Shown: positions 13,528-42,266 of the stretch, piece after piece
Layout: each line of letters begins with the position of its first letter
Numbering within the stretch: position 1 is the first letter of the stretch
NCBI GenBank assembly: GCA_002698785.1
Contig: PAAG01000047.1
Location: forward strand, 248,001-312,000
DNA: 64,000 bases
Direction of reading: 5' to 3'
Source: Verrucomicrobiales bacterium
GTDB taxonomy: Bacteria; Verrucomicrobiota; Verrucomicrobiia; Verrucomicrobiales; DEV007
Made by a program: the position numbers and the translations under genes
Notes under the pieces: generated by a model
Told to the model about the DNA's origin: nothing
The model's database searches: none
Seen by the model: only the letters and a program-made list of their open reading frames with translations

Positions 13528-14121
13528 ATGAGCGACTGCGACTGCCACGATTCCGCGAACGAGATTCAGGAGCGCTCCGTCCTCTGGACACTGCTCGCCA
13601 TCAACGGCGGCATGTTCGTAGCGGAGATGATCCTCGGCATCGTCGCCGACTCGACCGGGCTGGTCGCGGACTCGCTCGACATGCTGGCCGATGCGACCGT
13701 CTATGGTATCGCGCTGTGGGCGGTCGGTCGTGCCGCATCTGCGAAACGGGGAGCGGCGCGTTTCAGCGGCTGGTTCCAGATCGCGCTCGCGGTGGGGGTG
13801 CTGCTCGACATCATCCGCCGATTCATCTACGGCAGCGATCCCGATTTCTGGTTCATGCTAGGCGTCGGTGTTGCCGCCTTGATCGCCAACGTCACTTGCC
13901 TCGCCCTGCTCGCGAAACACCGCAAGGGCGAAGTCCACATGCGGGCGAGCTGGATTTTCTCTAAAAACGACGTCATTGCCAACACCGGCGTCATCCTCGC
14001 CGGCGCACTCGTCCATTTCACCGGCACCCGCTGGCCCGACCTCGCCATCGGTCTCCTCATCACCGTCGTCGTGTTCCGAGGCGGACTGTATATTCTGAAG
14101 GACTCAGAAAGCCAAAAATAG
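13528..14121 (+). CDS. Cation diffusion facilitator family transporter
   Basis: A 197-residue membrane protein with about six hydrophobic segments and no C-terminal cytosolic domain. The N-terminus carries a small C4/C6/H7 motif. The helix-2 motif GLVADSLDMLAD places D51 and D55 at the usual HxxxD metal site. The helix-5 counterpart is SKNDVIAN (D148, N152) instead of HxxxD, so the site is Asp/Asn-rich. CDF proteins exchange cytosolic divalent metal for protons. It starts 12 bp after the metallothionein-like gene and closes the metal cassette. Specificity is uncertain because of the altered site. Confidence 0.82.
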   Translation: MSDCDCHDSANEIQERSVLWTLLAINGGMFVAEMILGIVADSTGLVADSLDMLADATVYGIALWAVGRAASAKRGAARFSGWFQIALAVGVLLDIIRRFIYGSDPDFWFMLGVGVAALIANVTCLALLAKHRKGEVHMRASWIFSKNDVIANTGVILAGALVHFTGTRWPDLAIGLLITVVVFRGGLYILKDSESQK

Positions 14122-14260
14122 GCGGTGATGTTTTTCAAGCATCGTGACTCCGGTTCACAAACTTGGCACGACAGTAGTCGTGTGAAAGCACCTGAGATCG
14201 TTCCAAATCAGAGTAGTCATTGTAATCGCAGAATCCTTTAGATAGCTTCATCATCGATCA

Positions 14261-15847: not shown

Positions 15848-15941
15848 TCCGACTAACTCCACATGGTCTCTAACGCTCACACTACAATCCTTTGCAGGAG
15901 TTGTAATTGCGGGAAAGGCGCGCGGGCACGATTGTTTTAAG

Positions 15942-16376
15942 ATGATTGAGGCAATCAAATTTCATTTCAGAATCCGTTCACTACTGCGAAGAAGCCAGTG
16001 TGCTGACCAAAAGAACCGAGAGGCCATCAGCCAAGCCAAGAGCGACGGGCGATCCGCGGAAGACATCCAGTCTCTGGAACACGACGCAATTCACGACTAC
16101 CGGGAATTCGATGAACTGATCCGCGAGTCAATGACGACTTTTCTCACCAATCGTGCGAGAAAGCTAATTCTTCCCCTCCCATCCGATGACGATGCTTGGA
16201 GCACGGGATACCTCTATCAAAACCGAATACTCACAGAAAAGGGCATCGCCCGACTCAGATCGGCGATTCGCCAAGAGAAATCCGAGAGAAGCCACTTGTG
16301 GGTGACTCCCGTATCCCTGATCATCGGTTTGATCGGTGCAGTAACAGCTTTGATTGGACTGCTCGCCGGATCATGA
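15942..16376 (+). CDS. Small tail-anchored membrane protein, unknown
   Basis: A 144-residue protein with a charged helical body and a C-terminal hydrophobic segment of about 25 residues (VSLIIGLIGAVTALIGLLAGS), which would anchor it by its tail. The frame is open from 15807, but the ATG at 15942 gives a start free of overlap with the preceding gene. It lies 94 bp after the 528-residue membrane protein on the same strand, so the two may work together. No family recognised. Confidence 0.6.
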   Translation: MIEAIKFHFRIRSLLRRSQCADQKNREAISQAKSDGRSAEDIQSLEHDAIHDYREFDELIRESMTTFLTNRARKLILPLPSDDDAWSTGYLYQNRILTEKGIARLRSAIRQEKSERSHLWVTPVSLIIGLIGAVTALIGLLAGS

Positions 16377-16502
16377 AGCGATTGAACGTTCTGACCCGGA
16401 TGACGATATGAAAGCTCTCGGGTTTTCCTCCGAAGTCTTTCCTTCGGCCAGCTATACTGCTTGCGTGGACAAAACCTGGGAAATGAGACGCGAAAAAGGT
16501 TC

Positions 16503-17027
16503 CTACTTAGTCCTGAAGCGTCCTTTTTCTCCGCAGATGTCTGACCATCTGATACGTATCCACTTCCCTTCTCCTTTCGGTAGGCTCTTCCGCAGGATCA
16601 TTTTCGCATCCACCCGAAAGTCGGAGTCGAATTTTACGACGATCACGGCACCGAAGTTCCCGGCCCGCTTCACCCTTACCTCTTCCTTCTTCTTGCTGGG
16701 AGAGATGGTTTTGATTTCCACCAGCAGACTTCCGAGACGACCGTCAGATCCACACTGACCGGGTCGGTGTCTCGTAATACCAAAGCGACGCTCGGCGTAG
16801 AGTTAGCCCAGTTCTCCATAGATCGGAAGATGGCGGCCCGTGGCATCGAGGTAATCGATCGCCACCGCCAGAACGCTCTCAAATATATTCTCATCGCCGA
16901 AGCGATCCTCCCTTTCTTCGACCACCACATTCCAATCGACCCACTCGCCGTCTTCCCACAGGCCGTCAACACCCGGAACCCGAGCATCTGATCCCGTATG
17001 GGTCATGGTCCTGAGATCGCCGTTCAT
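16503..17027 (-). pseudogene. Small nuclease-fold-like gene broken by one stop codon
   Basis: One frame runs from ATG 17027 to the stop at 16503 and is interrupted by a single in-frame TAA at 16803-16805. Reading through gives GELG-stop-LYAERRFG, then GSLLVEIKTISPSKKKEE and VKRAGNFGAVIVVKFDSDF. The flow across the stop is smooth, so a point change (for example GAA to TAA) is likely. The second half resembles DUF6998-like proteins with a PD-(D/E)xK-style VEIKT motif, assigned from memory. It follows the NERD gene by 6 bp on the same strand. Readthrough or a sequencing error are alternatives. Confidence 0.65.
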
Positions 17028-17033
17028 CGGAAC

Positions 17034-17990
17034 CTACCGCCCTGCTGGTTCGATTGCGTTTTGCTTCCGGCCGGATCGTTCACCTTTGCGCGGAGCTTCT
17101 ACCCGGTGGCGCGGCTTCTTTTCGAGAGGAAGTTCCACCGTCGTAGCTGTCTTGAGCTGGGACAGAATAATCTTCCAGGAACGCTCATCGAGGACCGCTC
17201 GGCGCCCCTTCACCACACGGTAAATCTGCTTTGGATTCACTACCTGCACCTCGCCTTTCCCTGTCACATCGACCCACCATCCTGGATAGGTCAGCACAGG
17301 AATTACCGGAACAGAAATCCCTCCACACCACTCCCGTGCCTTTTGTTCAAGCCAACGCGCCTGCCGGGACGCCTGCTTCACCGAATCCACCTCATAGCTG
17401 CCGTCGGGGAAATTGACCTTGTGTCCGTCGAACGAAAGTTTGTGACAAGGGGCGTCTACCGTTTGCTTCTTCCTTTTGGCCTTGGTCTCAACCACGAAGA
17501 GTCCAGCCCGGGTCACAACGACATGGTCGATGTTCCATTCCCCGTTTAGGTCGGGAACCACGAGATCGTGAAAAACCTTGAGATCCGCATCCTGAATCGC
17601 ATCCAGCTCCGCGCCGACATACTGTTCGCCGCGGATGCCCAACCACCAGTTCGGAAGCGGTCGGTAGGCCACCCACATTCGCCACAGGCAGATGGGAGAC
17701 GTGATCAATCCGAAGATCAGAGGCGTAATGACCGCTTCCCCTTCGCTCAACGTGAACACAAGCCACGGCAGGACCGCTACCATGGCCGTCATGCTCAACC
17801 ACGTCGTGAACGTCTCCCACTGGTCATCGGCCCGCTGGATCAGGCTATGTGCCGGATGCCGACGCATTTCATTGAATGGCCTGGCCGCTTCCTTCCGGGC
17901 TTTGATCAGCTTGCGTGCGTAGATGAAGATGACGAGAGCAGGGAGTCCCGGGAAACAGAGAAAGAACCAGAATTGGGCGGGCATAGTCAC
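17034..17990 (-). CDS. NERD-domain (nuclease-related) membrane protein
   Basis: A 318-residue protein with an N-terminal membrane helix (about 5-25), two more (about 63-82 and 88-108), then a NERD domain from about 118. GEQYVGAELDAI, IDHVVVTRAGLFVVETK (D, E and K of the nuclease-like fold) and a following beta/alpha core are visible. The C-terminus is very basic. NERD domains resemble PD-(D/E)xK nucleases and are often found in mobile or defence loci; activity on DNA is inferred, not shown. It precedes the broken gene at 16503 by 6 bp and lies downstream of the NTPase operon. Confidence 0.8.
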   Translation of the reverse strand: MTMPAQFWFFLCFPGLPALVIFIYARKLIKARKEAARPFNEMRRHPAHSLIQRADDQWETFTTWLSMTAMVAVLPWLVFTLSEGEAVITPLIFGLITSPICLWRMWVAYRPLPNWWLGIRGEQYVGAELDAIQDADLKVFHDLVVPDLNGEWNIDHVVVTRAGLFVVETKAKRKKQTVDAPCHKLSFDGHKVNFPDGSYEVDSVKQASRQARWLEQKAREWCGGISVPVIPVLTYPGWWVDVTGKGEVQVVNPKQIYRVVKGRRAVLDERSWKIILSQLKTATTVELPLEKKPRHRVEAPRKGERSGRKQNAIEPAGR

Positions 17991-18073
17991 TGGGAAATCT
18001 AACCTCGGTGATCGATTACTCCAGTGGTAATTATGGTTTTTATACCACTTGAGAAGTTCCGTGCTTGGGAGAG

Positions 18074-20257
18074 TTAGCCTTGTGACTCCTTAAACCCTTC
18101 GATAAATCGCAACGTTTCAGCGATTTTCTCGTCGCTACACCCCAAAGCAGAAAGGCTCCTTTCGACACTCTCCGGAAGGGGAGCGAAGAAGATAGCCAGG
18201 ACTCCATAGTTTGAGCTCACCAAATTCGGATCACAAGTTAACTCCCAATCGCCTTTCACCATCTGATGCTGAGAAATAGCTTCTAGCTCGGTCAGAAAAT
18301 CTTCTGCGGAAGGCTTGTCTCCAGTCCACATATTAAAGATCTCATGTCTGTGAACGACGTTGGTATTTCCATCAACCTTCCGGGCTCCATTAATTCGGAT
18401 AGCTCCATCACCCAAAAACCTTCCTAGCGCCAGAAAGTCATAAACATAAGCACCACCCGTCTTTCCTGGGATTGACCAAGGCATCGAGTTCAGAACAATC
18501 GGAACGAACCTCTTTCCTGAAATCTTCCGTCCAAATTCTTTAGCAAGAATCTCTGGATGTTCTTTCAGCTGATCAGCAATTCGCTTCGCTTGCGAAATCG
18601 CTTCACCAATTCTGGACATGTAGAAATATTCGAGTCCAGGCCGGTGGTCTGGCAACGAGTAGTTTTTGCACTCAATCACAAAGACGTAGCCTCCCCAAAC
18701 GACGCACAGATCGCAGTCATACGTGACCCCATCCAATTTGTAACGGAATGACCGGCACTCGATTCCTCGCTCTTCAAACACAGCTTTTACCTCTTTTTCA
18801 AATCTCCTCCCTTTCGATTGAATTTGATGCCCCCTCTTCCCGAACTGTGACATCACTAACCGGTGAGCCTGCACCCCGGGGAGATATTGATAAAGGAAAT
18901 GCAAACCGCCGGATTGATCACGAAGAAACGGTGCGTCGAAAAGATCGACTGAATCTATCGAAAATATGCAGTGATCCACAAAGGTGTGTGCTGCCTGTTT
19001 CGGCACCCCGCCTCTAGCGAGCAACTCAACAACCTCTTTTCGAGTGCTGCTGAGAACTCCCTCTTCGGGCTGCTCTGAGAGAATCTTTTCTGCCCAGCAC
19101 TTCAACACTGAGTACGCACGGATCCACTCCGAGATTGTAAGACCACTGTACCGATCGATACTTTCATCTACAGGCCAGTAGAAAAGTTCCTCCAATGCCA
19201 TCCGTGAGAGAAGCTCGTCATCCGAAACGAAGGCATCAGGAGGCAGGGGCACCTCCGTTTCAAATGGCGAGCTGAGATTGTCCAAAATATCTGTTTGAGT
19301 GGCGACACTAAAGCGCCATTCGATCTGAAGGCGCACCCTTCGCTTCATCGCGATGAGAAAGTTTCTCGCATATTCGTGATCTATGTCGAATACCAACCAA
19401 TTCGCTGGGGCGTTCTTCTTCTGCTCCTCTGAGATCGTCAATTTCTCCCGGAGGTCCTCCCATCTCGTTCTACCGCCAAAGTATCGAAGCTCTTCACTCG
19501 ATGATTCCAGGAGCCCCCATACCTTCGCGAGATAGAACACAGTTCCGACTTTGAATGATTCATCACCATCGATTGAAACCCGCGTAGGGACGAGTATTTC
19601 TCCAGTCTCCTTGTCGATCCAGCCATTTACTCCAGCAACCATTTTAATCGAGTTCACGATGTTTGAATTCATAAGATCGATTGCAGAATCGACATCGACA
19701 TGAACCCCCTCAACTTCGATTGTGGTATCGCTGAATACCAGCGCGCTACCTTCCTGTATCTGCGCCTCACGTTTCTTTTCCAGCATCTCAAGAATGCCCG
19801 ACACTTCTCGTGAAGCTCTCTCAATCCACCCCCAAACCTGCCTGTCTTTATCGATTTTCCAGGCTTCCGACTTGCGCAGGGTCTTCAGAATCTCCTGAAA
19901 GCAGATGCTAATTCTTTCACAGTCGTCTGCGTGGGAAATCAATTCTGAATGAGCATCGGGACAATCAAGTTCATCCCGAAGAAAGCCACCCATCGCCTCA
20001 ACGAACTCTCCTTGGGCTGAAATATCTCCTTCGCGGGAATACTTCAATATCAACCCTCCCGACCTCTTCAAAAGTTTCACTGCTTTCTCTGCAGTTTCCT
20101 TATCACCCTTCTTCTTCGCGCGCTCCCGTAGCAACGCGATCGCATCTTTGGAGTTGGAATTCCGAAAGTGGGATATCAGCAAGTCTTGATCCATTCGAGG
20201 CCATCGTGCCCGACCACTTAGTATGATGCAACGTATACACGAGCTGAAATACGTCAC
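18074..20257 (-). CDS. PD-(D/E)xK nuclease-domain protein of defence operon
   Basis: A 727-residue protein, mostly helical, with a restriction-endonuclease-like domain at about residues 480-600. FEKEVKAVFEERGIE is followed by DCDLCVVWGGYVFVIECKNY, giving the D...ExK catalytic pattern. The start is a GTG at 20257 preceded by GAGGTG, a usable ribosome site; the ATG at 20194 is an alternative that drops 21 residues. It begins 6 bp after the NTPase gene, so the two are surely cotranscribed. The rest of the protein gives no recognised family. It may be the DNA-cutting effector of the system. Confidence 0.75.
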   Translation of the reverse strand: MTYFSSCIRCIILSGRARWPRMDQDLLISHFRNSNSKDAIALLRERAKKKGDKETAEKAVKLLKRSGGLILKYSREGDISAQGEFVEAMGGFLRDELDCPDAHSELISHADDCERISICFQEILKTLRKSEAWKIDKDRQVWGWIERASREVSGILEMLEKKREAQIQEGSALVFSDTTIEVEGVHVDVDSAIDLMNSNIVNSIKMVAGVNGWIDKETGEILVPTRVSIDGDESFKVGTVFYLAKVWGLLESSSEELRYFGGRTRWEDLREKLTISEEQKKNAPANWLVFDIDHEYARNFLIAMKRRVRLQIEWRFSVATQTDILDNLSSPFETEVPLPPDAFVSDDELLSRMALEELFYWPVDESIDRYSGLTISEWIRAYSVLKCWAEKILSEQPEEGVLSSTRKEVVELLARGGVPKQAAHTFVDHCIFSIDSVDLFDAPFLRDQSGGLHFLYQYLPGVQAHRLVMSQFGKRGHQIQSKGRRFEKEVKAVFEERGIECRSFRYKLDGVTYDCDLCVVWGGYVFVIECKNYSLPDHRPGLEYFYMSRIGEAISQAKRIADQLKEHPEILAKEFGRKISGKRFVPIVLNSMPWSIPGKTGGAYVYDFLALGRFLGDGAIRINGARKVDGNTNVVHRHEIFNMWTGDKPSAEDFLTELEAISQHQMVKGDWELTCDPNLVSSNYGVLAIFFAPLPESVERSLSALGCSDEKIAETLRFIEGFKESQG

Positions 20258-20263
20258 GCGAAT

Positions 20264-23200
20264 TCACCTCACACTGCAATCTAGGACAAATGATGAGATG
20301 AGAATCTCACCATCTGAAAGCTGCTTTGCCTGATCTTTAAAATGAGAGATCGATTGGGGAAGGTCGGGGCATTTCCGCCTTGCACTTGCCTTCCGAGTAT
20401 CATCGTCATCCCACTGCTCCTGAGGAAACCACGTCACCAAATAGATGCCGTGTCTTGAGGCGCTCGAATGAAGATACTGCCCCTTCAACTGAGTCTCCAT
20501 AGAGGAATTCACCATCTCGTGCCAGCAACCTTTGACTTCAATAACTACACTCAGCTTCCTGATTTCACCTCGTTGCTGAGAAGTCGAGGAAATATGGATA
20601 TCAGCAAAATCTTGAGTTGAGACGTCCACTTCTCGATTCACTACGACGCCTCTCTCAAGGAGATCTCTTTCGAGGAACCGGCTGACATTTGTTGAGATTG
20701 TCAATTCACTGCGGGGTCGACCAAGCCCTCCCAACTCTCGGGCTTCATTCCAAAAATCATGCACGGCAGGATTTTGCCCGTGCAGAGATTCCTGTAGCCT
20801 CGCGAGCGACTCCAAAACGATCTCTTGTAGGGCGCCCTCTGAATTGACGACTCTCATGCCTGCATGTCTCTTTAGTTGCAAAAGCGAACTTGGCTCGATA
20901 GGAATCCAATCTTTTCGCATTCGATTGCGTTCTGCATCCCGCAGACTCCACATTAGCCAAATTTTATCTTCCCCGTCGATAGCGTCCGAAATCCTTCGCA
21001 ATTCATCACAAGCATTTTGGGTTCCGCGGGACACCAGCGATTTCAAACAGTTGGAACGAAAAAATTGAACATGATCGATCGCATGCACAGCACCGCCTTC
21101 CCGATTGTTGACCGGCTCTTCAGGGAACTTTTCGTATAGCAGCAGATACAGGTCAGCCAGCTGCTTTTCCGAGAAGCGATCACAGACAATTTCGTTTCCG
21201 TATCCAAAGAGGTGGTCATTCTCGAGGAACATGCGACGAACTTCCCAAGGGAATCTTTCCAAAATACTCCAGACATTCTCCCAATGGCGCTCCGGGAAAT
21301 GAACGAGAAGATTTGCCCAAACAGTGCGCTGAGGACGAAAAAAGAAACCATCGAGCTGATCCCGATCCAGCATTCTAGTAAGAAACAGTTCAGCGTGCTC
21401 GGAATTCGCTTTCTTCAAGAACTGAAAGGCTGAACGAACCGTGTCGTAGCGAGGAACTAAAGACACCAAATAATCGATCAGTTGACAGGTGAGTGCCTCA
21501 TCCCACATTTCCTCCAACCCATCCAAGAGAATGAGCCATTGTCCATTTTCGGCCTGCGTCCTAAGGTCGAGAAAGAACTGTCGGTCAAAATCTGGAGGTG
21601 AGATCCGGCGCACAAGAGAGAAAATTTCAGTGCGGTCTTTGCCAAAGAAAGGGCTGCATCCGACAATCGTAGAGAGCCACTTTCTCACAATCAGGTTTCG
21701 CAGCTTCATATCAGATTGGAGCTGCTCTATCAAAAGGAAGATCGCTTGGAGAGATCTATGCCGGGTTCCATCGGAGGGCGCGTTGGATTCCAAGTGAAGC
21801 CTCGCAGAAGACTTGATCACCGACCTCGCCCTTTTGCTGAGAGACAGCCACGGTTCCAACTTCTGAAGATCCAGAACGGTATGACTCATACTCTCACGCC
21901 CGTTCTCGGTAAGGCACAGAACATATGCTAACCCAGCCCACGCATCCGGCAGTTTTCCTTCTGCTCTTGCCAACCAGTGATTTATTTGAACAGATCGTTC
22001 TTCTCGTGGCTGATTTGGAACCGAGATTGACGCCAACTCCCGATCCCTCTCAGCAGCTGCTTCAGCCATCGGGACGATTTCACTCTCAATGTCATGCGGT
22101 CGCAGCCACGAAAACTTCTCATCGAGGGCAGTAACTCTGGATTTTGCTATCAAGAATTGATCCCAGTGCTTCGTGAATTCGTCAGACCAACAGTAACGAT
22201 CAATCAGCTCGGCAAGAACAACCTGAACTCTCTCTTCGGCATTTTCTATCTCGGCCAGAAAGAAGCCCAGATCGCTGGGTTCGGTGACCTTTCGATCCAG
22301 AACAAACGAGAGCGCTTCGGCGTTCATTGTTGAATGATCCATCAACGAACGAAGAATCTCTCGTCGGTGTTCCTGGTCACGCAAAACGATGGGATCCGCC
22401 TCAAGACTTCTTCCGGAAACGGTCTCTCCCTCGTAGACGAAACGCGGCAAACGATAGTGAAAACGTCCCTGCGCTATCCAGAACTCGACAAAACTCCGTG
22501 CGACATCCTGATCATCAAGATGATTCACTGCGAGCTGGAGGGCCTTTCCCGCAAGCTTCTGAAAAACGTTTCCTGACGAACAGCACCCGTGAATCGCCTT
22601 CAACCGCTGCAAGACTTCGCTCAGATCATCCAGGACCAAGTGCTTCGGTGCTTCAAATATCAACCACGTATTGTATGGGCCATTGATTGTCCTGGGTCCA
22701 GGTGAAAGGTATCCAATAACATCTCCCAGAGAATTGAATTCAGGAACAAGAACGCTCAATATAGCAGCCTTTATTTCACCTTCCGGATCGATTGAGATGG
22801 CAGCGGCGAGCTTCGTCAGCAGCTCTTCCTCAAATCCACCTCCCGGCATGGCTTTTAGCGCATCAGCAATCGCTCCCACGATAGCTCTGTCTCCCTCATC
22901 CTCTCTTTCGATCACTTCCCAGATTTGATCCCTCAAATCTGTCACTTTGCACTCGGCAACGAGCTTGAATGCGATCCTCCTCACAACTGGATTCTTTGAT
23001 GAATCACTGAGGAAGGGTTTTAGTTGCTCTGAAATTTCCGGGTGAGCGAGTGAGCTGTAGTTCGGCCAATCGCTCCAATCATCAAAAACGCTGCCATCTT
23101 CCGCACCATCGAGAATCGCCCGCACCAGCTCTGACTTGCGGTCTGCTTGCGACTGACTCACGTCAGCTTTCAAAAGTACCTGCGGATCGTTTGCGATCAG

Positions 23201-24460
23201 AAAATCAAAGAAATCGCCATTTCCAAGGGCTACCCATGCTGCCAATTCGCTGAGTTGAGGCACAGCTCTTGGACCGGAACTTCCTTCGTCGAAGAAGATT
23301 CCACGGAGTTGCGGGACGGAAAGATCGGCCAGAAAATTTGCACCGAGTGCTTCTGCAAACGTTCTATGGTCAAACGTGAAACAGTCGTTACTCGATGCTC
23401 GAAAAAGCGGGGTGGCAAGAGTCGTCCTGATCAAATTCGGCGGAGGCTCCCCCAGATTGCCATTTTCGGAATCTGCCAAACTAAGGTCCACTTTTGTAAA
23501 TGCTCCTTCGGGACACCCATCGACTGCCGCGCCATTGAAATATCCAACCCTACCACTTACCAGTTGAATCGCCGCCATCCGTGAAGACAAAGCCATCACT
23601 TCTTCCTGGGTTACTGAAGCTTCACCATCGATACGATCTTGTTCTCGTGCTCTATCAGGGTCCCACTCGCCAGACAGGCGATAGCAAAAATTGGAATACA
23701 GCTGGAAGTGAGATCCATTGAATGAGGGATTCGATTGATATTCTGATAGCAGCATTCGCAGTGTCAGCGGCGAAGCGGCAAGATGAGTAAGGCGATTTGA
23801 CATCATCCATTCTGAAAATTCGTCCGAATCAACGTCGCAAGAAGCTACAGCCAGCATCACGTCTTCGTACCTGAGAGGGCACAGTTCAAAACGATAGTCG
23901 TCTCCGGCACCCAGAATAGCTGCCAATTCGGAACCGGGTGCCAATGGCCAATCCGCGCTTCGGCAGGCAATAACGATTCGTAGTCGATCAACCGGATGGT
24001 CCTTCAGCCATCGACAAAGAGTCTCCAATATCCGACCGATGCGGAACAGGCCCTCGTCCAGAGAATCAATGAAACAGGTCAAGTCACCATCACCATCCAG
24101 CCATCTTCGCCAAATCTCCGAATCCACTGTCTCACGCCTGAACTCTTCGAGGGTCGGCACTTGAGTCAAATCCACAAAAATGGAACTTCCTTCGCGTTCT
24201 TCACAATCCCTGTGAAGCTGTCTCAGTTCGATTGATTTGCCATCCCCGGGTTTCCCGTGCAGGACAGCAAATCGAAAGTCTGCCAGTCTGCTTGTCGGCC
24301 AGATTCCCGACTCAACCAATTCATCTGGATCTATGGTCTCTCGAAAAATGCCCGTCGAGAGAGACAGGAATCCGGACTGACCGTCAATGTAATCCGAAGC
24401 TCCCAATCGCTTCCAATAGCGCTGCCATCCAAGCAAGGACCCACTGATCAATCGACTCAT
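20264..24460 (-). CDS. STAND/NACHT-like NTPase with C-terminal nuclease domain
   Basis: A 1,398-residue protein. A P-loop NTPase lies near the N-terminus: Walker A GKPGDGKS at 69-76 and Walker B LTCFIDSLDEG at 127-137, the acidic pattern of NACHT/STAND ATPases. A long helical region (about 450-1230) could be the sensor. Near the end, ADIHIS (about 1287) and VVIEVKGCW (about 1300) form a PD-(D/E)xK-like core. The layout recalls antiviral STAND (Avs) proteins, which recognise phage proteins and activate an effector, though with the nuclease at the opposite end from many Avs. It is the middle gene of a three-gene operon. Confidence 0.8.
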   Translation of the reverse strand: MSRLISGSLLGWQRYWKRLGASDYIDGQSGFLSLSTGIFRETIDPDELVESGIWPTSRLADFRFAVLHGKPGDGKSIELRQLHRDCEEREGSSIFVDLTQVPTLEEFRRETVDSEIWRRWLDGDGDLTCFIDSLDEGLFRIGRILETLCRWLKDHPVDRLRIVIACRSADWPLAPGSELAAILGAGDDYRFELCPLRYEDVMLAVASCDVDSDEFSEWMMSNRLTHLAASPLTLRMLLSEYQSNPSFNGSHFQLYSNFCYRLSGEWDPDRAREQDRIDGEASVTQEEVMALSSRMAAIQLVSGRVGYFNGAAVDGCPEGAFTKVDLSLADSENGNLGEPPPNLIRTTLATPLFRASSNDCFTFDHRTFAEALGANFLADLSVPQLRGIFFDEGSSGPRAVPQLSELAAWVALGNGDFFDFLIANDPQVLLKADVSQSQADRKSELVRAILDGAEDGSVFDDWSDWPNYSSLAHPEISEQLKPFLSDSSKNPVVRRIAFKLVAECKVTDLRDQIWEVIEREDEGDRAIVGAIADALKAMPGGGFEEELLTKLAAAISIDPEGEIKAAILSVLVPEFNSLGDVIGYLSPGPRTINGPYNTWLIFEAPKHLVLDDLSEVLQRLKAIHGCCSSGNVFQKLAGKALQLAVNHLDDQDVARSFVEFWIAQGRFHYRLPRFVYEGETVSGRSLEADPIVLRDQEHRREILRSLMDHSTMNAEALSFVLDRKVTEPSDLGFFLAEIENAEERVQVVLAELIDRYCWSDEFTKHWDQFLIAKSRVTALDEKFSWLRPHDIESEIVPMAEAAAERDRELASISVPNQPREERSVQINHWLARAEGKLPDAWAGLAYVLCLTENGRESMSHTVLDLQKLEPWLSLSKRARSVIKSSARLHLESNAPSDGTRHRSLQAIFLLIEQLQSDMKLRNLIVRKWLSTIVGCSPFFGKDRTEIFSLVRRISPPDFDRQFFLDLRTQAENGQWLILLDGLEEMWDEALTCQLIDYLVSLVPRYDTVRSAFQFLKKANSEHAELFLTRMLDRDQLDGFFFRPQRTVWANLLVHFPERHWENVWSILERFPWEVRRMFLENDHLFGYGNEIVCDRFSEKQLADLYLLLYEKFPEEPVNNREGGAVHAIDHVQFFRSNCLKSLVSRGTQNACDELRRISDAIDGEDKIWLMWSLRDAERNRMRKDWIPIEPSSLLQLKRHAGMRVVNSEGALQEIVLESLARLQESLHGQNPAVHDFWNEARELGGLGRPRSELTISTNVSRFLERDLLERGVVVNREVDVSTQDFADIHISSTSQQRGEIRKLSVVIEVKGCWHEMVNSSMETQLKGQYLHSSASRHGIYLVTWFPQEQWDDDDTRKASARRKCPDLPQSISHFKDQAKQLSDGEILISSFVLDCSVR

Positions 24461-24484
24461 TGAAAACGCCTTTCTTCGTTCAGC

Positions 24485-25582
24485 CTAGCCGAATTTCTTC
24501 TTGTCCCGGAGCACCAGTGAATAGACCCGTTCTAAATTCTTCCCGGACAACTTCGTCAAAGAATTGAAAGGCTTCATTTTAAGACGAGCAGCTATTTCTG
24601 GGTAGTAGTCTTCGTTAGTTCGGCCCATGTGTTTCATTGCTGCCTTGATGGCAGGGATTCGCCCTCTCTTATGCACTGCGGGTGCTCTGGTTCTTGCCTT
24701 ACTTTGCAAGATTCGCTTATTTGTGTTGTGCCATTTTCTGACCTCCGGAAGTTGCTCAGGGCGAAGGAGTTCATACTTCGTGACTTTGAACTTGTTGTGC
24801 AATCTGCTCCATGCTTCACCCAGAGCCTGTTTCGTACTCTTTTTTTCTACTTGCTCAAGCAAGACCGCGAGTTCGTGTACCAAATCAAAAACCTCAGCTT
24901 GCTGAGCTGGCGAAATAAACCCTTCGCCGTAGTCCATCACAACTTTAGGCCGCTTTGGCCCGGTTGACTTGATGTTGACGGTGTTTGAGTCCCCTACAAG
25001 CTGAACGTTCCCGTCGCCTTTTGCTGACTGCGCAATCACTCTCTCGTCAGTCCCGTCAGTTTTCCCATCTTCTGCAGTAAGAAATTTGCGAATGTTTTCG
25101 TCCAAGTGGCGCTCAAGCTGCTCCTTGAAATCTCTTCGACTGCGAAAGGTTCCGGGAAGCCCGGTCGCCATGGCTCGTCTCCTGAAATCCTCCAGCAGCT
25201 TCGCTTGCTCGTGATCCGGTTCGATCATCGGAGCCTCCAGATCAGAAAAATACAGCATCACCGGAATTTCACGCGCCATGGCTCGCACCACTTCTTCTTC
25301 TGTGCCGGAACTATGCATTCCCGTAGGCGTCCCAAAGCGACGCCAGAACACTGCAATCATCAAATCCGCCTCATCGATCAGTTGACCGTTGATTACTGCC
25401 TGCCCCCTTTTTTCCATCGAGGGAACGGAGTTCTTCTTCCAGTTCGTTAGAGAAACTCCGCAATTCAGAGCTTCGAAGTTTCTCAGATTCCATTTCTCGA
25501 TCACCTCGGCCGCAATCTCCAATTCCTTGCTCACATCTCCTGGTCCACAAAAGACGATCTTAACGATTTTTGCCTGTTTCAT
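24485..25582 (-). CDS. DUF4062 (TIR-like) protein with C-terminal helical domain
   Basis: A 365-residue protein. Residues 1-160 match the DUF4062 pattern: a beta-strand opening VKIVFCGPGDVSKE, NGQLIDEADLMIAVFWRRFG, and GTEEEVVRAM. DUF4062 is a TIR-like fold found next to STAND NTPases. A short GDGNVQLVGDSNTVNIKS segment (about 192-209) leads to a basic helical C-terminus resembling phage anti-repressor-type tails. It starts the operon, 24 bp upstream of the NTPase. A signalling or effector role is inferred; NAD cleavage has not been shown for this family as far as I know. Confidence 0.75.
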   Translation of the reverse strand: MKQAKIVKIVFCGPGDVSKELEIAAEVIEKWNLRNFEALNCGVSLTNWKKNSVPSMEKRGQAVINGQLIDEADLMIAVFWRRFGTPTGMHSSGTEEEVVRAMAREIPVMLYFSDLEAPMIEPDHEQAKLLEDFRRRAMATGLPGTFRSRRDFKEQLERHLDENIRKFLTAEDGKTDGTDERVIAQSAKGDGNVQLVGDSNTVNIKSTGPKRPKVVMDYGEGFISPAQQAEVFDLVHELAVLLEQVEKKSTKQALGEAWSRLHNKFKVTKYELLRPEQLPEVRKWHNTNKRILQSKARTRAPAVHKRGRIPAIKAAMKHMGRTNEDYYPEIAARLKMKPFNSLTKLSGKNLERVYSLVLRDKKKFG

Positions 25583-25662
25583 CTCGACGAATGCTTGAAC
25601 TACAAATCACATCAATAACTGTGAATTTCAAAGCATTCTAAAACAATTTCCAACCCAATTCT

Positions 25663-25684
25663 GCACAATTCCACATTTTTGTGC
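25663..25684. promoter_or_regulatory. Dyad in divergent AT-rich promoter region
   Basis: GCACAA (25663-25668) and TTGTGC (25679-25684) form a perfect dyad in the AT-rich 155-bp gap between the divergent defence operon (start 25582) and the 25738 gene. It is a candidate operator for both directions. No bound regulator is evident nearby. Confidence 0.35.
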
Positions 25685-25737
25685 GAGAATAAACTTTTTC
25701 ATGGACAAGTTCTGGAGTTTGCGTTCCTTTTGTCGTC

Positions 25738-26406
25738 ATGGCATTCAGAATTAATGAGGCAATCGAGAAAGGTCGGGAGTTTGCACTTCACCGCCTAATC
25801 TCCTCTCTGCCTCAAGAACTGCGCAATCTCAGCGAGGCAAAATTACTCGATCTAATCGATCGATTTGGGCCTGTCGTGGACGCCTATCCCTGCTGGCATC
25901 CTCTGGTTGCGAGCAACTATGACCCCCAAATTCCTCACAGCTACCCTGACCATCGCTGCGGCTACAACGGCCTCGATCACACCGTCTACCTTAGAGACGC
26001 ATTTATTTCCTGCCCTTATGGAGGAGCAGAAGAAATCATTGAGTCGGTCGAAAACCTCGAGTCCAGAGACCACCTCTGGGCAACGATCGAAGCGGAGAAA
26101 TTGGATTTTCCACTCTATCAGGAGACTGCAACACCCGTACTGGTCAAGTGCACCTGGCACGAACCAATGGAACGAGACCATACTCTGCCGAAACGTTTTG
26201 CCATTGCCAGAATTCTTGAGCAGGAGATTCCAAACTGGGCGGATTACGATCTTGGTGAGACATGGGAAACAATGCGCACCTACTTTCTCGGACAACCCTG
26301 TGGAGCAAGATCTTCCCTTTTCGTAAACCAGGATACAGGGCAAAAGATGAAAACCGTATGGAACGCTGTTCTCAATGCCGGGGTGTTTGGTCCCATAAAG
26401 GTTTAG
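25738..26406 (+). CDS. Conserved-looking protein of unknown function
   Basis: A 222-residue soluble protein, rich in Trp, His and Cys (for example DAYPCWHPLV, CTWHEPM, NWADYDLGETWETMRTYFLGQPCG). No signal peptide or membrane segment is seen and no family is recognised. It is divergent from the NTPase operon and followed after 27 bp by an HNH endonuclease, so the two genes are probably one unit. A role as partner, inhibitor or sensor of that nuclease is possible but unsupported by motifs. Confidence 0.65.
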   Translation: MAFRINEAIEKGREFALHRLISSLPQELRNLSEAKLLDLIDRFGPVVDAYPCWHPLVASNYDPQIPHSYPDHRCGYNGLDHTVYLRDAFISCPYGGAEEIIESVENLESRDHLWATIEAEKLDFPLYQETATPVLVKCTWHEPMERDHTLPKRFAIARILEQEIPNWADYDLGETWETMRTYFLGQPCGARSSLFVNQDTGQKMKTVWNAVLNAGVFGPIKV

Positions 26407-26433
26407 GCGATTCCAAGAATTCAAAAGGAAACG

Positions 26434-27135
26434 ATGAGCACTTGGAACGAATCCAGAATCAGCGAAACAACAAGTTGGACGCAACAGAGAAATTGGGGTG
26501 GTCACCTCTCTGACAACGAATACCGCAAGCGAAGGGTAAGCTGGAACCCATTTATAGGAGGAGAGGAGCTGGACATCCTTAGTAGCGGCGACTACGAGGC
26601 AACCGCTGCGAATGACGAGCGATTCAAGTTCGCCCAAGCAAATAGCGAATTAATCGGTGCTTTCGAGACGGTCTCAGATTGCCTTGAGCCGGAAGATGAC
26701 TCGATTGAGCGTATGTATAAGCTGGAAGCGGCTCAAGTTGAAAAGATTTCATCAATCCTAAGACGCGTCGAACAGCGGAACGGATCGACCACCCTCTCGT
26801 TTGCCGAAAGAAATATCCGAACGCGAAGGCGCAAGAGAGGATTCATTGTCTTGCTCAAGGAACTCTACGGATATCGATGCCAAGTATGTGCCAGACACCT
26901 CCCTTGTCCCAATCTCAAAATCCCCGGTTACACAGAGGGGCATCACCTCCAACCACTTGGAAAGCACGACGGCCCAGACATCGCTGAGAATGTTATCATA
27001 GTCTGCCCCAACCATCACATTCTCCTTGAACACGGCGGAATGAGTTTGGACCTCAAGAAACTATCGCTTTTGGAACATGAAATCGGCAAGGAATTCGTGA
27101 GCTACCACAATCGTGAGATTTACGCGATTCAATAG
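26434..27135 (+). CDS. HNH endonuclease
   Basis: A 233-residue protein whose C-terminal half is an HNH/McrA-type nuclease: CQVCARHL for the first zinc knuckle, TEGHHLQPL with the catalytic His, and NVIIVCPNHHILLE for the second knuckle and final His. The N-terminal half is helical and unrecognised and may read DNA or a partner. An AAAAGGAAACG ribosome site precedes the ATG. It closes the defence region and converges on the AAA gene. Restriction-like cutting of foreign DNA is the likely role by context. Confidence 0.85.
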   Translation: MSTWNESRISETTSWTQQRNWGGHLSDNEYRKRRVSWNPFIGGEELDILSSGDYEATAANDERFKFAQANSELIGAFETVSDCLEPEDDSIERMYKLEAAQVEKISSILRRVEQRNGSTTLSFAERNIRTRRRKRGFIVLLKELYGYRCQVCARHLPCPNLKIPGYTEGHHLQPLGKHDGPDIAENVIIVCPNHHILLEHGGMSLDLKKLSLLEHEIGKEFVSYHNREIYAIQ

Positions 27136-27165: not shown

Positions 27166-27258
27166 AATCCACCCGTTGCGTTGCAGTGGATTCTCCCGAC
27201 CGCTCCCCCAACATCCGGGAGAGCAGCCTCATCTGATCCCCTTCGCGCAGCGGATCAG
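27166..27258. terminator. Hairpin cluster between convergent genes
   Basis: Three stem-loops lie between the HNH and AAA genes: AATCCAC/GTGGATT (27166-27192), TCTCCCG/CGGGAGA (27192-27222) and CTGATCC/GGATCAG (27233-27258). The last overlaps the AAA stop codon. An A-run precedes the first stem, which gives a U-run on the minus strand. Together they may stop transcription from both sides. Confidence 0.5.
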
Positions 27259-28760
27259 GACAGGTCGAGCTTGCGTTTACCGTTGGCGGGCTTGTCCGCG
27301 TGGGTGGCATGACGGGCGCGGGTCTTGGCCCAGTGACGCAGTTGCTCGATGGACTCGCTCATGGTGGTGGCAAGCGGGACGGATTCGCAGAGAACTTCAC
27401 CAAGATCGAGTTCGGTGGGCTCGCGGTCTCTAGCGAATCCGCGATGAAGCGCCTCGACGAAGGCAGCTTCGATCTCGGCCCCGGTGTGAAGCTCACTGGC
27501 TCGCGCCAGCAAGACGGAGTCGAAAGCGGTTTTCTCCCGACCGTATTTCTCGACAACGATGTGCCAGATCGCAGCTCGCTCCTGACTGTTCGGCAGATCG
27601 ACGAACCACAGTTCATCCCATCTCCCCTTCCGGAGCAGCTCGGGCGGGAGCTTGCTGACATCGTTGGCCGTGGCGACGACGAAGACAGGTTTGGTCTTGT
27701 CCTGAAGCCAGTTCAGCATCGTACCAAAGACCCGGGCGCTGGTGCCTCCATCGGTGGACCCGCCGGAGCTGCCTACGCCCCCAAAGCCCTTCTCGATCTC
27801 ATCGATCCAGAGAACACAGGGACTGATCGTCTCGGCGGTCTGGATGACGCTCCGGAGATTCGCTTCGGACTGGCCGACGAGGCCGCCGAAGAGTTTCCCC
27901 GCATCGAGCTGGAGCAGCGGAAGGCCAAAGACACTGGCCGTTGCCTTGGCGGTGAGACTCTTTCCGGTTCCGGGAACACCGAGAACGAGCATACCCTTGG
28001 GAATGGGCAGACCGTAGTCGCGAGCGCGTTGGGTGAAGGCCTCTCGCCGATGCAGGAGCCAGTCCTTGAGCGCGTCAAGTCCGCCGATGTCATCCAGGAC
28101 TGCCGGAGTGTCAACAACCTTGAGAAGCCCGCCGCTCTTCAGGGCCTTGGCCTTCTCCCGGGCCACGATGGTCGCCTCGACGTTACCGGTTTCGACTACT
28201 GAGAGAGCGAAAGCGTTCTCTGCCTCCATCGTGGTGAGGCCGCCAGCGGCATCGAGGATGGTTTCCCGATCCGGCTCTCCGATCGCGGGGAGCGTGGCGG
28301 AGTCGGTGATGGCATCGAGGACGGTGGCGAGTTGCTCCCGGTCCGGCAGATCGAAATCAATCCGGGTAATCTCACGCTCCAGTTCAGGAGGGAGAGTCTT
28401 CCCCACTCCGACCAGGACAATCAGCTTTCCGGCCGATTTGGCATGGTGGAGGGTTTCCCGGAGCTTCCGGACAAGGAGTGGATCCTTGTCCTCGAGCAAG
28501 GCGCCGAAGTCACGAAGAACCACGACGGAATCTCCGGAGAGCGACTCAATGGCTTCGAGCGCTTCCACCGGATCATAGCAGCGATGAATGCTGCCACTGG
28601 CCGTGTCGATCATGCCCGTGGAGATGCTCCAGGCATGGACATTTCGACCGAGTTCTTTGGCGGCGGCTTTCACCTCCGCCTCGGCTCGTGCCTCTTCAGC
28701 AGTGCACAAAAAAAGGCCGGCGTAACCGGCCCTCGCATAACGAACGAGTTGTTCTTCCAT
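27255..28760 (-). CDS. AAA+ ATPase, Ycf46-like
   Basis: A 501-residue protein. The N-terminal 210 residues resemble a degenerate RecA/AAA-like domain seen in Ycf46 proteins. The C-terminal AAA+ module has Walker A GVPGTGKS (261-268), Walker B CVLWIDE (315-321), a sensor region VFVVATAND and a following KGRWDELWFVDLP arginine-finger segment. Such ATPases remodel protein or DNA complexes. It is last in a packed operon with DUF2997 and DUF1257, a trio that also occurs in cyanobacteria and phage-like loci. The start ATG lies 6 bp from the upstream gene. Confidence 0.85.
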   Translation of the reverse strand: MEEQLVRYARAGYAGLFLCTAEEARAEAEVKAAAKELGRNVHAWSISTGMIDTASGSIHRCYDPVEALEAIESLSGDSVVVLRDFGALLEDKDPLLVRKLRETLHHAKSAGKLIVLVGVGKTLPPELEREITRIDFDLPDREQLATVLDAITDSATLPAIGEPDRETILDAAGGLTTMEAENAFALSVVETGNVEATIVAREKAKALKSGGLLKVVDTPAVLDDIGGLDALKDWLLHRREAFTQRARDYGLPIPKGMLVLGVPGTGKSLTAKATASVFGLPLLQLDAGKLFGGLVGQSEANLRSVIQTAETISPCVLWIDEIEKGFGGVGSSGGSTDGGTSARVFGTMLNWLQDKTKPVFVVATANDVSKLPPELLRKGRWDELWFVDLPNSQERAAIWHIVVEKYGREKTAFDSVLLARASELHTGAEIEAAFVEALHRGFARDREPTELDLGEVLCESVPLATTMSESIEQLRHWAKTRARHATHADKPANGKRKLDLS

Positions 28761-33307: not shown

Positions 33308-34159
33308 TCAAAGTCCCGACAGGGTTCGACATTCGCTGGCGTAGTCACACCAGCTGCAATGCTGACCGGGCGAAGGGATCCAGGCTTCCGCGGCGATTCC
33401 TTCGAGGTAGTCCTCGATGAGCCGAAAGAGTTCCGACTCAAGTCGGTCACTCATAGGATCGAGTGTCGACACGAGGATCTTGGGCACCTTGGTCTTGATC
33501 AGGTAGTGCAGCTCGAATCCCGATTCCCTCTGCCCGGTGGCACTCCGATAGAGTGTCCCGTAGGCGGCCAGTTGCGTGGCATGCTGTTCAGGACCGCTGC
33601 CTGAGCTCGGGGCTCGCGCTGCCGTCTTGTAGTCGACGATCTTCCCGCCGAGACGGACCAGATCGATGATGCCTACCAGACGGATTCCGAATCGATCGAG
33701 GTAACAATCCACCTCCACTTCGACTCCTTCCGGAGTTTCGGAATACGGAACCGGTGATTCGGCGAAGTAGGTTTCGAGCATTGCCCAGGCTTGCGCTTTG
33801 GCGTTGGCTTCGTCGCCCTCCTTCTTCCAGGGAACAGACTCGCTTTCGAGACCGCGTTCCCAGGATTCGTCAAACTCGGCCCGAAGCTGATCGGCGTCGA
33901 ACGGTTCGCTTTTCCAGCGTGCCCAGTTCAGGGACTTCAGGCACTCATGCACCTGCTGTCCGATGAACAATGCCGGGGCCGTCGGCGTCGCGATCCTTTC
34001 CACGTAGCGGAAGAAGAATTGACGCCGACAGGTTTGCCAGCATTTCAGGCGGCTCGCCGAGAGGTAGTCCAGCAAACCGGGATCCGAACTCGGTTCCGGG
34101 AGAATACGGAGGTTCGAGGGTACCTTCTGCTGGGCGGGAACGGACTGGGCCGCGTTCAT
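33308..34159 (-). CDS. PD-(D/E)xK exonuclease, Cas4/RecB family
   Basis: A 283-residue nuclease. LDYLSASRLKCWQTCRRQFFF opens the domain (first Cys near 39-43), VGIIDLV gives the catalytic Asp, IVDYKTA the DxK motif and ATQLAAY the QxxxY motif. CSWCDYASEC near the end supplies cysteines for a likely 4Fe-4S cluster. This is the AddB/Cas4 plan of 5'-3' ssDNA exonucleases. There is no CRISPR array or cas1 nearby, so a recombination role is more likely. Its start overlaps the preceding stop (34156-34159). Confidence 0.85.
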   Translation of the reverse strand: MNAAQSVPAQQKVPSNLRILPEPSSDPGLLDYLSASRLKCWQTCRRQFFFRYVERIATPTAPALFIGQQVHECLKSLNWARWKSEPFDADQLRAEFDESWERGLESESVPWKKEGDEANAKAQAWAMLETYFAESPVPYSETPEGVEVEVDCYLDRFGIRLVGIIDLVRLGGKIVDYKTAARAPSSGSGPEQHATQLAAYGTLYRSATGQRESGFELHYLIKTKVPKILVSTLDPMSDRLESELFRLIEDYLEGIAAEAWIPSPGQHCSWCDYASECRTLSGL

Positions 34160-39859: not shown

Positions 39860-39943
39860 TACCGACAGCGGGACTTGAACCCGCACGCTCGCAATGAGCA
39901 ACGGATTTTAAGTCCGTTGCGTCTACCATTCCGCCACGCCAGC
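39860..39943 (-). tRNA. tRNA-Leu (anticodon UAA)
   Basis: Minus-strand reading gives a D-arm TGGCGGAATGGTAGACGC, an anticodon arm AACGGA-CTTAAAA-TCCGTT with anticodon TAA, a long variable arm typical of Leu, and a T-arm GCGGG-TTCAAGT-CCCGC. CCA is not encoded. The acceptor stem as read (GCTGGCG with TGTCGGT) relies on four G-U pairs, which is unusual. Confidence 0.9.
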
Positions 39944-40017
39944 GTTTCAGGACAGGAGGGTGGACAGTAAGCCTTGAATTTACGGAAAAATCAACTGGAT
40001 AGCTGGAATCACTTCCT

Positions 40018-40135
40018 AGAAATCTCGGTGCCCGTGATTCCGCTCTTCCCAAGGGCCTGGATCTCCGCTCTAGTTCTCGGGTATGAAATCCCCCTGGCTC
40101 CTCACTCTCGTTGCGCTTGCCACCTTTTCGGCACC
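40018..40135. repeat. Left 118-bp direct repeat flanking the Fic gene
   Basis: Nearly identical to 41285-41401: two substitutions and one extra base. It contains the first 18 codons of the esterase gene (ATG at 40083), cut off by a stop (TGA) just after the repeat ends. This copy is a broken duplicate. Confidence 0.9.
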
Positions 40136-40175
40136 GTGATTAACGTGCCCCTTTAGAACTTAGACAGCTAGGTCT

Positions 40176-41159
40176 CTAGGTTTTCGACTGTTTCCTCCGA
40201 ATTTCGGCCAAGGTGAAGCGTTGTTTCTGTAATTCGAGAATACGCTTGGCGCGTTCAACTGCTTCGGGTGCGTATAGCTGATAGCCGGAATCCGTGGTTT
40301 CAGCTACTTCTAGCAAGCCTTCCTTCGTCCAGTGGCGAATGGTGGAATTATTCTTGCCTACCAACTTTGCCAACTCACCTATTTTCAGCAGCTTGCCCTT
40401 TGCAACCGGATGTATGTCATCTTCTCCACGGCATGCTTTCAGATAAATGTCGAGTGAACGGTCAACCGCCTTGGCGATGAGCTTGAGATAATCCTCTTTC
40501 GATCCGCCTAGCTGCGCTTGTTCGAGCGCACCGATATAAGCCAGCCTGTCACGCTTGCGGATGATCGCGGGGGGATAACCCTGCATCATCAGAATCATAT
40601 TCATCAGCAACCGCGCCGTACGGCCATTGCCGTCAACGAAGGGGTGAATGGTCACAAGACGGTAATGTGCTTCGGCTGCCAGTTCGACCGGATGAAGGCC
40701 GGATTCCGATTTCAACCAAGTCGAAAATTCCTCCATCAAATCCGGCACTTTGAAAGGATTTGGCAGAATCACTTCCGAACCGGAAATCCGCACGGGAACA
40801 GCACGGTATTGCCCGGAATTGGCATCATCAATTCCGCGCAGAATCGTGGCGTGAATGGTGAGAATCTCACGCTCCGAAATCTCCGATGGCTCACGCTCGA
40901 TTTGCTCTTTTACGAAATCCAGTGCATGCGCATGGTTGGTGGCCTCTAAATGCTCGGTCAGGGTTTTGCCGCCAACGGTAAGCCCCTTCTCAACCACCAG
41001 CGCAGTTTCACGGCGGCTCAGCGTGTTGCCCTCAATTGCATTACTGGTGTAAGTCAGTTCGACCTTGAACCACTCATCAAGATTACGCACCAGAGCATCC
41101 GGCATTGGCCGGAACTCAGCAAGCTGGCGCTGCTTTTCAGTGATAGATTCGTAGCTCAT
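40176..41159 (-). CDS. Fic-family AMP transferase with C-terminal MerR-like HTH
   Basis: A 327-residue protein. The Fic motif HPFVDGNGR (172-180) carries the catalytic His172 and the phosphate-binding loop. SNAIEGN (39-45) near the N-terminus is the auto-inhibitory motif (S/TxxxEG). From about 257, KIGELAKLVGKNNSTIRHWT is a MerR-like winged helix. Fic enzymes transfer AMP from ATP to target proteins and often act in toxin-antitoxin-like control; the HTH suggests it also regulates genes. ATG 41159 is chosen because the -10 box overlaps the upstream ATG at 41171. It is a single inserted gene between 118-bp repeats. Confidence 0.88.
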   Translation of the reverse strand: MSYESITEKQRQLAEFRPMPDALVRNLDEWFKVELTYTSNAIEGNTLSRRETALVVEKGLTVGGKTLTEHLEATNHAHALDFVKEQIEREPSEISEREILTIHATILRGIDDANSGQYRAVPVRISGSEVILPNPFKVPDLMEEFSTWLKSESGLHPVELAAEAHYRLVTIHPFVDGNGRTARLLMNMILMMQGYPPAIIRKRDRLAYIGALEQAQLGGSKEDYLKLIAKAVDRSLDIYLKACRGEDDIHPVAKGKLLKIGELAKLVGKNNSTIRHWTKEGLLEVAETTDSGYQLYAPEAVERAKRILELQKQRFTLAEIRRKQSKT

Positions 41160-41203
41160 ACCAAAAACCATAAACCGTAACGTTATGGTTTGCAATTTAC
41201 GGT
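41160..41203 (-). promoter_or_regulatory. fic promoter with two interleaved dyads
   Basis: On the minus strand, -35 TTGCAA (41190-41195) and -10 TATGGT (41167-41172) are 17 bp apart. Dyads AACCATAA/TTATGGTT (41166-41190) and ACCGTAA/TTACGGT (41174-41203) overlap them. A start site about 7 bp on falls next to ATG 41159, so the mRNA could be leaderless. The protein's own HTH is the obvious candidate binder. Confidence 0.55.
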
Positions 41204-41284
41204 GTAAAGCAAGATGAACGCACTTCGTCAGGACTTTAGCTCTGCAGTGTCTCACTCTCCGGGATCAGGTCCGATTCTTTCTAC

Positions 41285-41401
41285 AGAAATCTCGGTGCCC
41301 GTGATTCCGCTCTTCCCAAGGGCCCGGATCTCCGCTCTAGTTTCGGGTATGAAATCCCCCTGGCTCCTTACTCTCGTTGCGCTTGCCACCTTTTCGGCAC
41401 C
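41285..41401. repeat. Right 117-bp direct repeat, start of esterase gene
   Basis: Matches 40018-40135 with two substitutions and one missing base. It covers about 64 bp upstream of the esterase ATG (41349) and its first codons, so this copy belongs to the intact gene. Confidence 0.9.
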
Positions 41402-42266
41402 TGATGCTCTTCTCGGACAGGCGAAGAAAAAGAAGTCCCCTCCTCCGTTTTCCTGGGTGAATGAAATTCCTGAAAATCAGATCTCTCGAATGAATCTGCC
41501 ATCGGGGGTGTCTCACCAGACGTTCAAGAGCCCTTCTATGGGTGTCGAGGTCGGCTATTACATCTATCTGCCCAAGGGCTACGAATCGTCTGGAGAGAAG
41601 GAATATCCAGTCGTATTTCATCTCCATGGAGGCCGTCCTGGAAGCGAGGCCAAATCCGTCCGAATCGCTCCTTTTGTTCACGACGCTATCTCTGCCGGAG
41701 ATATTCAACCGACGATTTATGTGTTTCCCAACGGCGGTCCCATGAGCTGGTACAACTATCCCCAGATCGAAAATGGCCAGGGCGAAGATGTCTTTGTGAA
41801 GGAGCTCATCCCCCACATTCAAGAGACTTATCGAACCCGTGAGCTAGCGATTGAGGGCTTCAGCCAGGGTGGACGCGGCACGACTCGCATCATGTTTCGG
41901 CACCCGGAATTGTTCGTATCTGCCGCACCGGGTGGTTCCGGATACGAGCCCGAGAAGCGAGTCCAGGAAAATGATGGACGCGAGAGCGAGAGAGTGGTCT
42001 TTGCCAAAGGCTACAATACCTGGGACCTGGCGGCAGAATACGGCAAACGCGAGGACAAAGATCGATTACCAATCCTTCTCTGGGTGGGGACGAAGGGCTT
42101 CAATTACGAGTTCAATCTGAAATACTCGGATTATCTGAAGTCGCTCGGAATTCCCCACGAAATGCTGATAGTCGAAGGAATCGACCATTCGGCAGTCCGG
42201 ATCTACGAGAAAAAGGGAACGGAATTGATGCAATTCCACCAGAAGTCGTTCGCCCAGAGTGAGTAA
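41349..42266 (+). CDS. Secreted alpha/beta-hydrolase esterase
   Basis: A 305-residue protein with a signal peptide (about 1-23, ending ALLGQ). Residues 91-95 (HLHGG) form an oxyanion-hole segment, the nucleophile is S172 in GFSQGG, and the catalytic His is likely H280 (GIDHS). It resembles the esterase D/feruloyl-esterase group that cleaves carbohydrate acyl esters. The frame is open from 41214, but ATG 41349 gives the signal peptide. The gene's 5' end is duplicated at 40018, apparently when the Fic gene arrived. It converges on the 42268 gene. Confidence 0.82.
   Translation: MKSPWLLTLVALATFSAPDALLGQAKKKKSPPPFSWVNEIPENQISRMNLPSGVSHQTFKSPSMGVEVGYYIYLPKGYESSGEKEYPVVFHLHGGRPGSEAKSVRIAPFVHDAISAGDIQPTIYVFPNGGPMSWYNYPQIENGQGEDVFVKELIPHIQETYRTRELAIEGFSQGGRGTTRIMFRHPELFVSAAPGGSGYEPEKRVQENDGRESERVVFAKGYNTWDLAAEYGKREDKDRLPILLWVGTKGFNYEFNLKYSDYLKSLGIPHEMLIVEGIDHSAVRIYEKKGTELMQFHQKSFAQSE

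Follow-up and report, generated by a model that had tools for sequence, protein, structure and literature searches.

A gene for a Fic-MerR fusion protein stands between a transfer RNA (tRNA) gene and an esterase gene in the 64,000-nucleotide stretch of a Verrucomicrobiales bacterium analyzed here (the window; positions 248001-312000 of contig C50, in a draft genome of 7.0 Mb and 60 contigs), and it is bordered on both sides by copies of a sequence of 118 bp. Its position results from an insertion next to tRNA-Leu that duplicated the target and kept the host gene. In all probability, what arrived was a foreign, self-regulated Fic-MerR segment of about 1.15 kb that entered illegitimately and duplicated approximately 118 bp of its target, which would place it in the class of insertions with long target duplication (ILD).

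The initial annotation of the window had proposed a 118-bp duplication around a Fic gene, and this is borne out by alignment. The left copy (40018-40135, plus strand, 118 nt) and the right copy (41285-41401, plus strand, 117 nt) share 115 identities in 117 aligned bases and differ by two substitutions and one 1-nt gap; the same pair was recovered as two ungapped blocks in the first repeat search, and the sequence occurs in its own genome at just these two places. The left copy contains the sequence upstream of the esterase gene, 17 full codons of that gene and two nucleotides of codon 18, a proline codon that is completed by the first base of the insert and is directly followed by a stop. The alignment thus delimits a truncated esterase leader of 18 codons with a junction-made TGA (40083-40139, plus strand), the peptide of which reads MKSPWLLTLVALATFSAP up to the stop. 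The left copy had been described as a promoter plus 18 codons; the truncated leader stands, but a consensus scan detected no sigma-70-like site within either repeat copy, so the promoter part lacks support. The right copy is, as had been claimed, the true gene start, and it continues into the intact gene for a secreted-type esterase (41349-42266, plus strand, 305 aa, Pfam PF00756), which is therefore kept whole. Between the copies there are 1149 bp (40136-41284) with a single gene on the minus strand.

The site without the insert can be seen in relatives. The esterase search covered 56 genomes, the one under study included, and, among the loci listed, in nine genomes of the same genus tRNA-Leu(taa) lies directly divergent from the esterase gene without a Fic gene between them (loci L004, L005, L006, L007, L011, L012, L013, L014, and L015). 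These nine genomes belong to other species of the genus and are not strains of one species. In the window, the same ancestral neighbor of the esterase gene is present (tRNA-Leu, anticodon taa, predicted by ARAGORN at 39860-39943 on the minus strand), followed by the ancestral spacer (39944-40017), which contains the motif GGAAAAATCAACTG. This motif recurs beside the tRNA, with changes, in several of the empty-site relatives. At the empty sites whose correct start codon was recognized, the gap from tRNA to esterase is 108-145 bp (L004 being measured from an inner ATG and L006 left out), and the ATG of the left copy in the window is 139 bp from the tRNA. In one further locus (L008) the tRNA is elsewhere, and the remaining tested loci have no tRNA on the sequence piece examined. 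Since the ancestral left flank runs uninterrupted into the left copy, and the right copy into the ancestral gene, the arrangement is a true insertion with target duplication, and the claim that the Fic cassette arrived by such an event is upheld by the empty site in these nine genomes. Relatives with the two repeats but no Fic gene would contradict it, and none was seen among the relatives examined. In addition, a close copy of the insert is absent from all 32 other congeners searched.

The inserted gene and the boundaries of the insert

The gene in the insert (40176-41159, minus strand) encodes a protein of 327 aa with a Fic domain and a C-terminal MerR helix-turn-helix, both recognized by Pfam, as well as the catalytic motif HPFVDGNGRTAR and an N-terminal SNAIEG inhibitory motif. 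The signature of class II Fic proteins, as given in the accessible part of PMC3667792, is a Fic motif with an N-terminal inhibitory motif in the same chain. By its motifs, the Fic-MerR protein is predicted to belong to this class and to carry its own inhibitor; HPFx[D/E]GNGRxxR and an N-terminal (S/T)xxxE(G/N) are found together in 45/45 sequences, the window protein included. Directly upstream of the Fic start there is a near-perfect palindrome, AAACCGTAACGTTATGGTTT (41172-41191), whose core pattern is also present upstream of 35 of the 45 homologues. It is a putative operator, probably autoregulatory and bound by the MerR domain. A single gene that holds a toxin-like domain, an inhibitor and a regulator can move alone.

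The best Fic match in a congener shows 36% identity over part of the protein, or 33% over most of it, whereas the nearest Fic-MerR relatives are found at 82% in a metagenome-assembled genome (MAG) of Verrucomicrobiia and at 70-75% in MAGs of Alphaproteobacteria, Gammaproteobacteria, Rickettsiales, and Dadabacteria. Thus, the insert is foreign to the genus. As for its carrier, the plasmid (657) and phage (47) records searched hold just relatives below 60% identity, and neither kind of record was retained as the source. Fic-MerR genes at 71-76% identity are present in four viral contigs (L327-L330); phages may therefore carry the family, and a phage vehicle for the window insert is possible. In the two viral contigs inspected by eye, the Fic-MerR gene is beside phage-like genes and, in L327, also near a serine-recombinase-like gene.

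The initial annotation had found no recognizable transposase. It is correct that the 1149 bp hold one gene only and no transposase or integrase gene, but they do contain a relic of a mobile element. Positions 41226-41271 (plus strand, 46 bp, non-coding) show an 83-87% match to the right terminus of an insertion sequence (IS) that is multi-copy in three congeners (G004, G028, and G031) and present in two others (G012 and G026). This IS encodes a pair of proteins with HTH_Tnp_1 and rve domains, an arrangement that we take to be that of the IS3 family, and one full copy of it (L121) has a 4-bp target duplication. In the genome under study, the transposase relatives of this element are distant (37% and 26%). 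The insert is, then, a mosaic that includes an IS relic. Between the relic and the right copy lie 13 bp, whose similarity to the left flank is at chance level (0.34). This rules out a duplication starting exactly at the IS terminus; the relic alone cannot explain the 118-bp duplication. Furthermore, there are no terminal inverted repeats at the insert ends, and no left end of the IS at the left boundary.

Target duplications around other toxin-type genes

A search for other genes flanked by duplications of about 100 bp in the same genome, which had been suggested as a check, returned one case. The scan for direct repeats covered 2.38 Mb (nearly all of contigs C50, C2, C56, and C54, and part of C52) and gave just seven pairs within the length and spacing limits, the window pair being one of the two strongest, and it is thus far beyond chance. 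Besides the window, the sole pair that clearly duplicates the end of an ordinary gene is on C52 (119798-119964 and 120541-120707), a repeat of 167 bp with 94% identity that corresponds to the 3′ end of a flavin adenine dinucleotide (FAD) oxidoreductase gene. The oxidoreductase is still whole, and between the copies lie a PF09720 antitoxin and a ParE toxin (PF05016). When both proteins were searched against the corresponding loci of relatives, good matches were obtained at their own locus alone. In the part of the genome that was scanned, toxin-type genes are thus the cargo of both clear insertions with a target duplication.

Among the other pairs in the scan, those at 14-26 kb of C50 were set aside because they look like an array of same-strand small genes, and a pair at 685 kb of C2 because it belongs to a repetitive protein; one at 282 kb of C56 has copies of 54 bp at a spacing of 175 bp. 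In the C50 region (13000-27000; L125 and L126), the small genes are nearly all on the minus strand, several are acetyltransferase-like, and three families of direct repeats of 57-171 bp lie among them, so that the region looks like an integron-type cassette array. Around position 47090 of C24 (L312) there is a further ParE-type pair with 179-bp repeats, cut by the contig end. With its 82% identity it was set aside, and it could be an older case or a cassette.

The same arrangement recurs beyond this genome. For the Fic-MerR family, 44 loci had enough flank, and direct repeats no more than 450 bp away on both sides were found in five of them, compared with 1/701 control windows from the same loci (Fisher p 3e-6); a coarser control at the same strength gave 0/261. 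With the two positives in repeat-rich DNA (L082 and L092) set aside, three clean cases are left (3/44, p 7e-4), namely the window, L094, and L104. In L094, from a Rickettsiales-type MAG, a second copy of the 3′ end of a hydrolase gene follows the Fic gene; the upstream copy measures about 185 bp, the downstream copy is shortened to about 120 bp, and the repeat has no further places in its genome. The stretch that the downstream copy lacks (about 65 bp, within L094:2880-4660) is retained by the functional upstream copy, as would follow from selection acting on one copy alone. In L104, from a Patescibacteria MAG, the 3′ end of a gene is repeated over 34 bp; this gene is, by eye, presumably peptidyl-tRNA hydrolase-like.

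Outside the Fic-MerR family, Fic genes of other types in congeners are flanked by repeats of 195 bp (L037) and 123 bp (L054), and a RelE-like pair (L303) by repeats of 183 bp plus 134 bp. The L037 locus also has a type I specificity-like gene, as judged by eye. When the genomes concerned (G020, G029, and G007) were searched with these repeats, each gave the two copies alone, beyond weak matches of 75-76%. The host gene of L054 was found in no other of the 32 genomes, so no empty site can be demonstrated there. The length of the duplication is variable, from 34 to about 310 bp across seven loci. Further candidates were dropped because the repeat is at several further genome places (L295, in G026, near a tRNA-Ser), because there are several repeats (L308), or because the repeat is 53 bp at 81% (L050). 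A uniform test for straddling repeats was positive in 0/23 esterase loci, 0/16 FAD loci, 2/28 weak-Fic loci, and 3/25 ParE loci, L303 being the only clean one of the last three. Loci with short flanks had been dropped from this test (2/25 esterase, 3/19 FAD, 1/29 weak-Fic, and 5/30 ParE), and the 30 ParE loci are those among the matches listed, which do not include the C52 case.

Mechanism and competing explanations

Among the mechanisms that could yield such an ILD, the leading candidate, although we infer it with somewhat less than even confidence, begins with a staggered break, or with opposed nicks about 118 nt apart, in the target. A foreign fragment would then be joined between the long overhangs, and the fill-in of these overhangs would give the two copies. 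Alternatively, a replication-based template switch during repair would have an identical product. Such products would persist, as the host gene stays whole through the duplication. The probable reason for the over-representation of toxin-type genes among the passengers is that transferred DNA often contains them and that they are not easily lost. Tentatively, ILD may be a general transposase-free route that spreads toxin-type genes (Fic, ParE/RelE, and restriction-modification) between and within phyla by one shared process, with long staggered ends and sparing of the host gene.

Several observations weigh against an illegitimate insertion of this kind. The biochemical steps are deduced from their products. 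The genome under study has no Ku protein (0/1), which rules out Ku-dependent end joining, and classical bacterial end joining must give way to a Ku-independent route. The insert is a mosaic, with its IS3-family relic and the adjoining 13 bp, and hence may reflect more than one event. As to the recurrence, 39 of the 44 Fic-MerR loci have no such repeat, although old insertions would be expected to have lost theirs, and 2 of the 5 positives (L082 and L092) are located in repeat-rich DNA. The controls were windows and not matched accessory genes. Because these windows overlap and toxin genes are situated in plastic stretches of the genome, the enrichment could be an overestimate. Finally, the evidence of an empty site is direct for the window only and indirect for C52.

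The alternative that survives best, though we consider it unlikely, is entry by homology. In this case, about 118 bp of the locus would already have been present on the incoming molecule, circular or linear, which could stem, for instance, from a sibling strain with Fic upstream of the esterase gene. It would have entered through a single homologous crossover, or else through homologous recombination at one end combined with illegitimate joining at the other, and the two copies would be two alleles. The two substitutions and one indel between the copies are compatible with allelic divergence, and a donor allele that an IS had disturbed would be in keeping with the IS3-family relic next to the right copy. 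There is also a precedent in E. coli conjugation, where, according to the available text of PMC3240628, 56/60 clones gave the polymerase chain reaction (PCR) product of a duplication, and the duplications in 14 sequenced clones (109-950 bp) were attributed to a single crossover of a circular molecule. Nevertheless, such an entry merely shifts the first insertion to another strain, as the donor must already have the arrangement. Moreover, the 13 bp adjoining the right copy have no homology to the left flank, and the Fic segment is in none of the 32 other congeners.

A transposition that duplicates a long target, brought about in trans by an IS1549/IS1634-like transposase, is improbable, and so is site-specific integration with a long attachment (att) core. 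Duplications of 8-514 bp are described for IS1549 and IS1634 in the accessible portion of PMC2266710, and the insert does hold an IS-end relic. However, it has neither a transposase gene nor terminal inverted repeats at its ends, and the relic, which leaves 13 bp between itself and the repeat, comes from an IS3-family element that makes a 4-bp duplication in L121. The targets of the other cases, in turn, show by eye no evident common sequence. Still less probable is a tandem duplication of the promoter region with a later entry of Fic between the copies: it is compatible with the sequence taken alone, but it lacks, among the relatives examined, one with two copies minus Fic, and it demands two events at one spot, repeated at every other locus. 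An assembly error or chimera, which a draft of 60 contigs might invite, can practically be dismissed, as the locus is far from the ends of its 780-kb contig, three positions distinguish the copies, and both outer junctions fit the ancestral order.

In the wider window, the genes to the left of tRNA-Leu (18074-39462) resemble a defense or mobile island. They include genes for a PDC-S60-like protein (24485-25582), an IetA-like AAA protein (27255-28760), and a PD-(D/E)XK nuclease with Cas4-like matches (33308-34159). Genes of the heavy-metal resistance type are found at 496-13045, where a MerR-type regulator, a P-type ATPase, and a CusA/CzcA-like efflux pump were noted by eye in the list of open reading frames.

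Comparison with known systems

Like class II Fic proteins such as SoFic, as presented in the accessible part of PMC3667792, the window protein has a canonical Fic motif and an N-terminal (S/T)xxxE(G/N). In contrast to them, it adds a C-terminal MerR domain and a conserved palindromic operator. Regarding the insertion itself, long and variable target duplications are shared with the transposition of IS1549 and IS1634 as described in the available text of PMC2266710, but the window insert does not have the transposase and terminal inverted repeats of such elements. A partial duplication of the target is likewise seen in homology-facilitated illegitimate recombination and single-crossover integration (109-950 bp in the available portion of PMC3240628); these processes work only if the incoming DNA carries homology, and of this no trace is present here.

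Bacterial genomes contain scattered small toxin genes for which no vehicle is apparent, and a gene-sparing footprint around unrelated toxin genes in several phyla would uncouple the insertion process from restriction enzymes. Nobusato et al. reportedly described ILD of restriction-modification genes in Helicobacter pylori in 2000. The class is known for the restriction-modification genes of this species from the accessible parts of PMC1643837, PMC3031569, PMC3874152, PMC2749054, and PMC4978471. As in the H. pylori cases documented there, the window has a gene unit without a mobile element of its own, flanked by direct repeats of about 100 bp that are single in the empty site. With respect to the features of the class, flanking repeats, an empty site, a variable duplication length, and the lack of a transposase or integrase gene are all found, and the passenger is not a restriction-modification system. 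Unlike what these sources describe for H. pylori, the passengers are Fic and type II toxin-antitoxin genes, the hosts are of other lineages, and an IS relic lies inside the insert. A non-exhaustive full-text literature search found no reports of ILD for Fic genes or type II toxin-antitoxin pairs. Thus, the kind of event is already known, while its passengers, its hosts, and its recurrence around toxin genes appear to be new.
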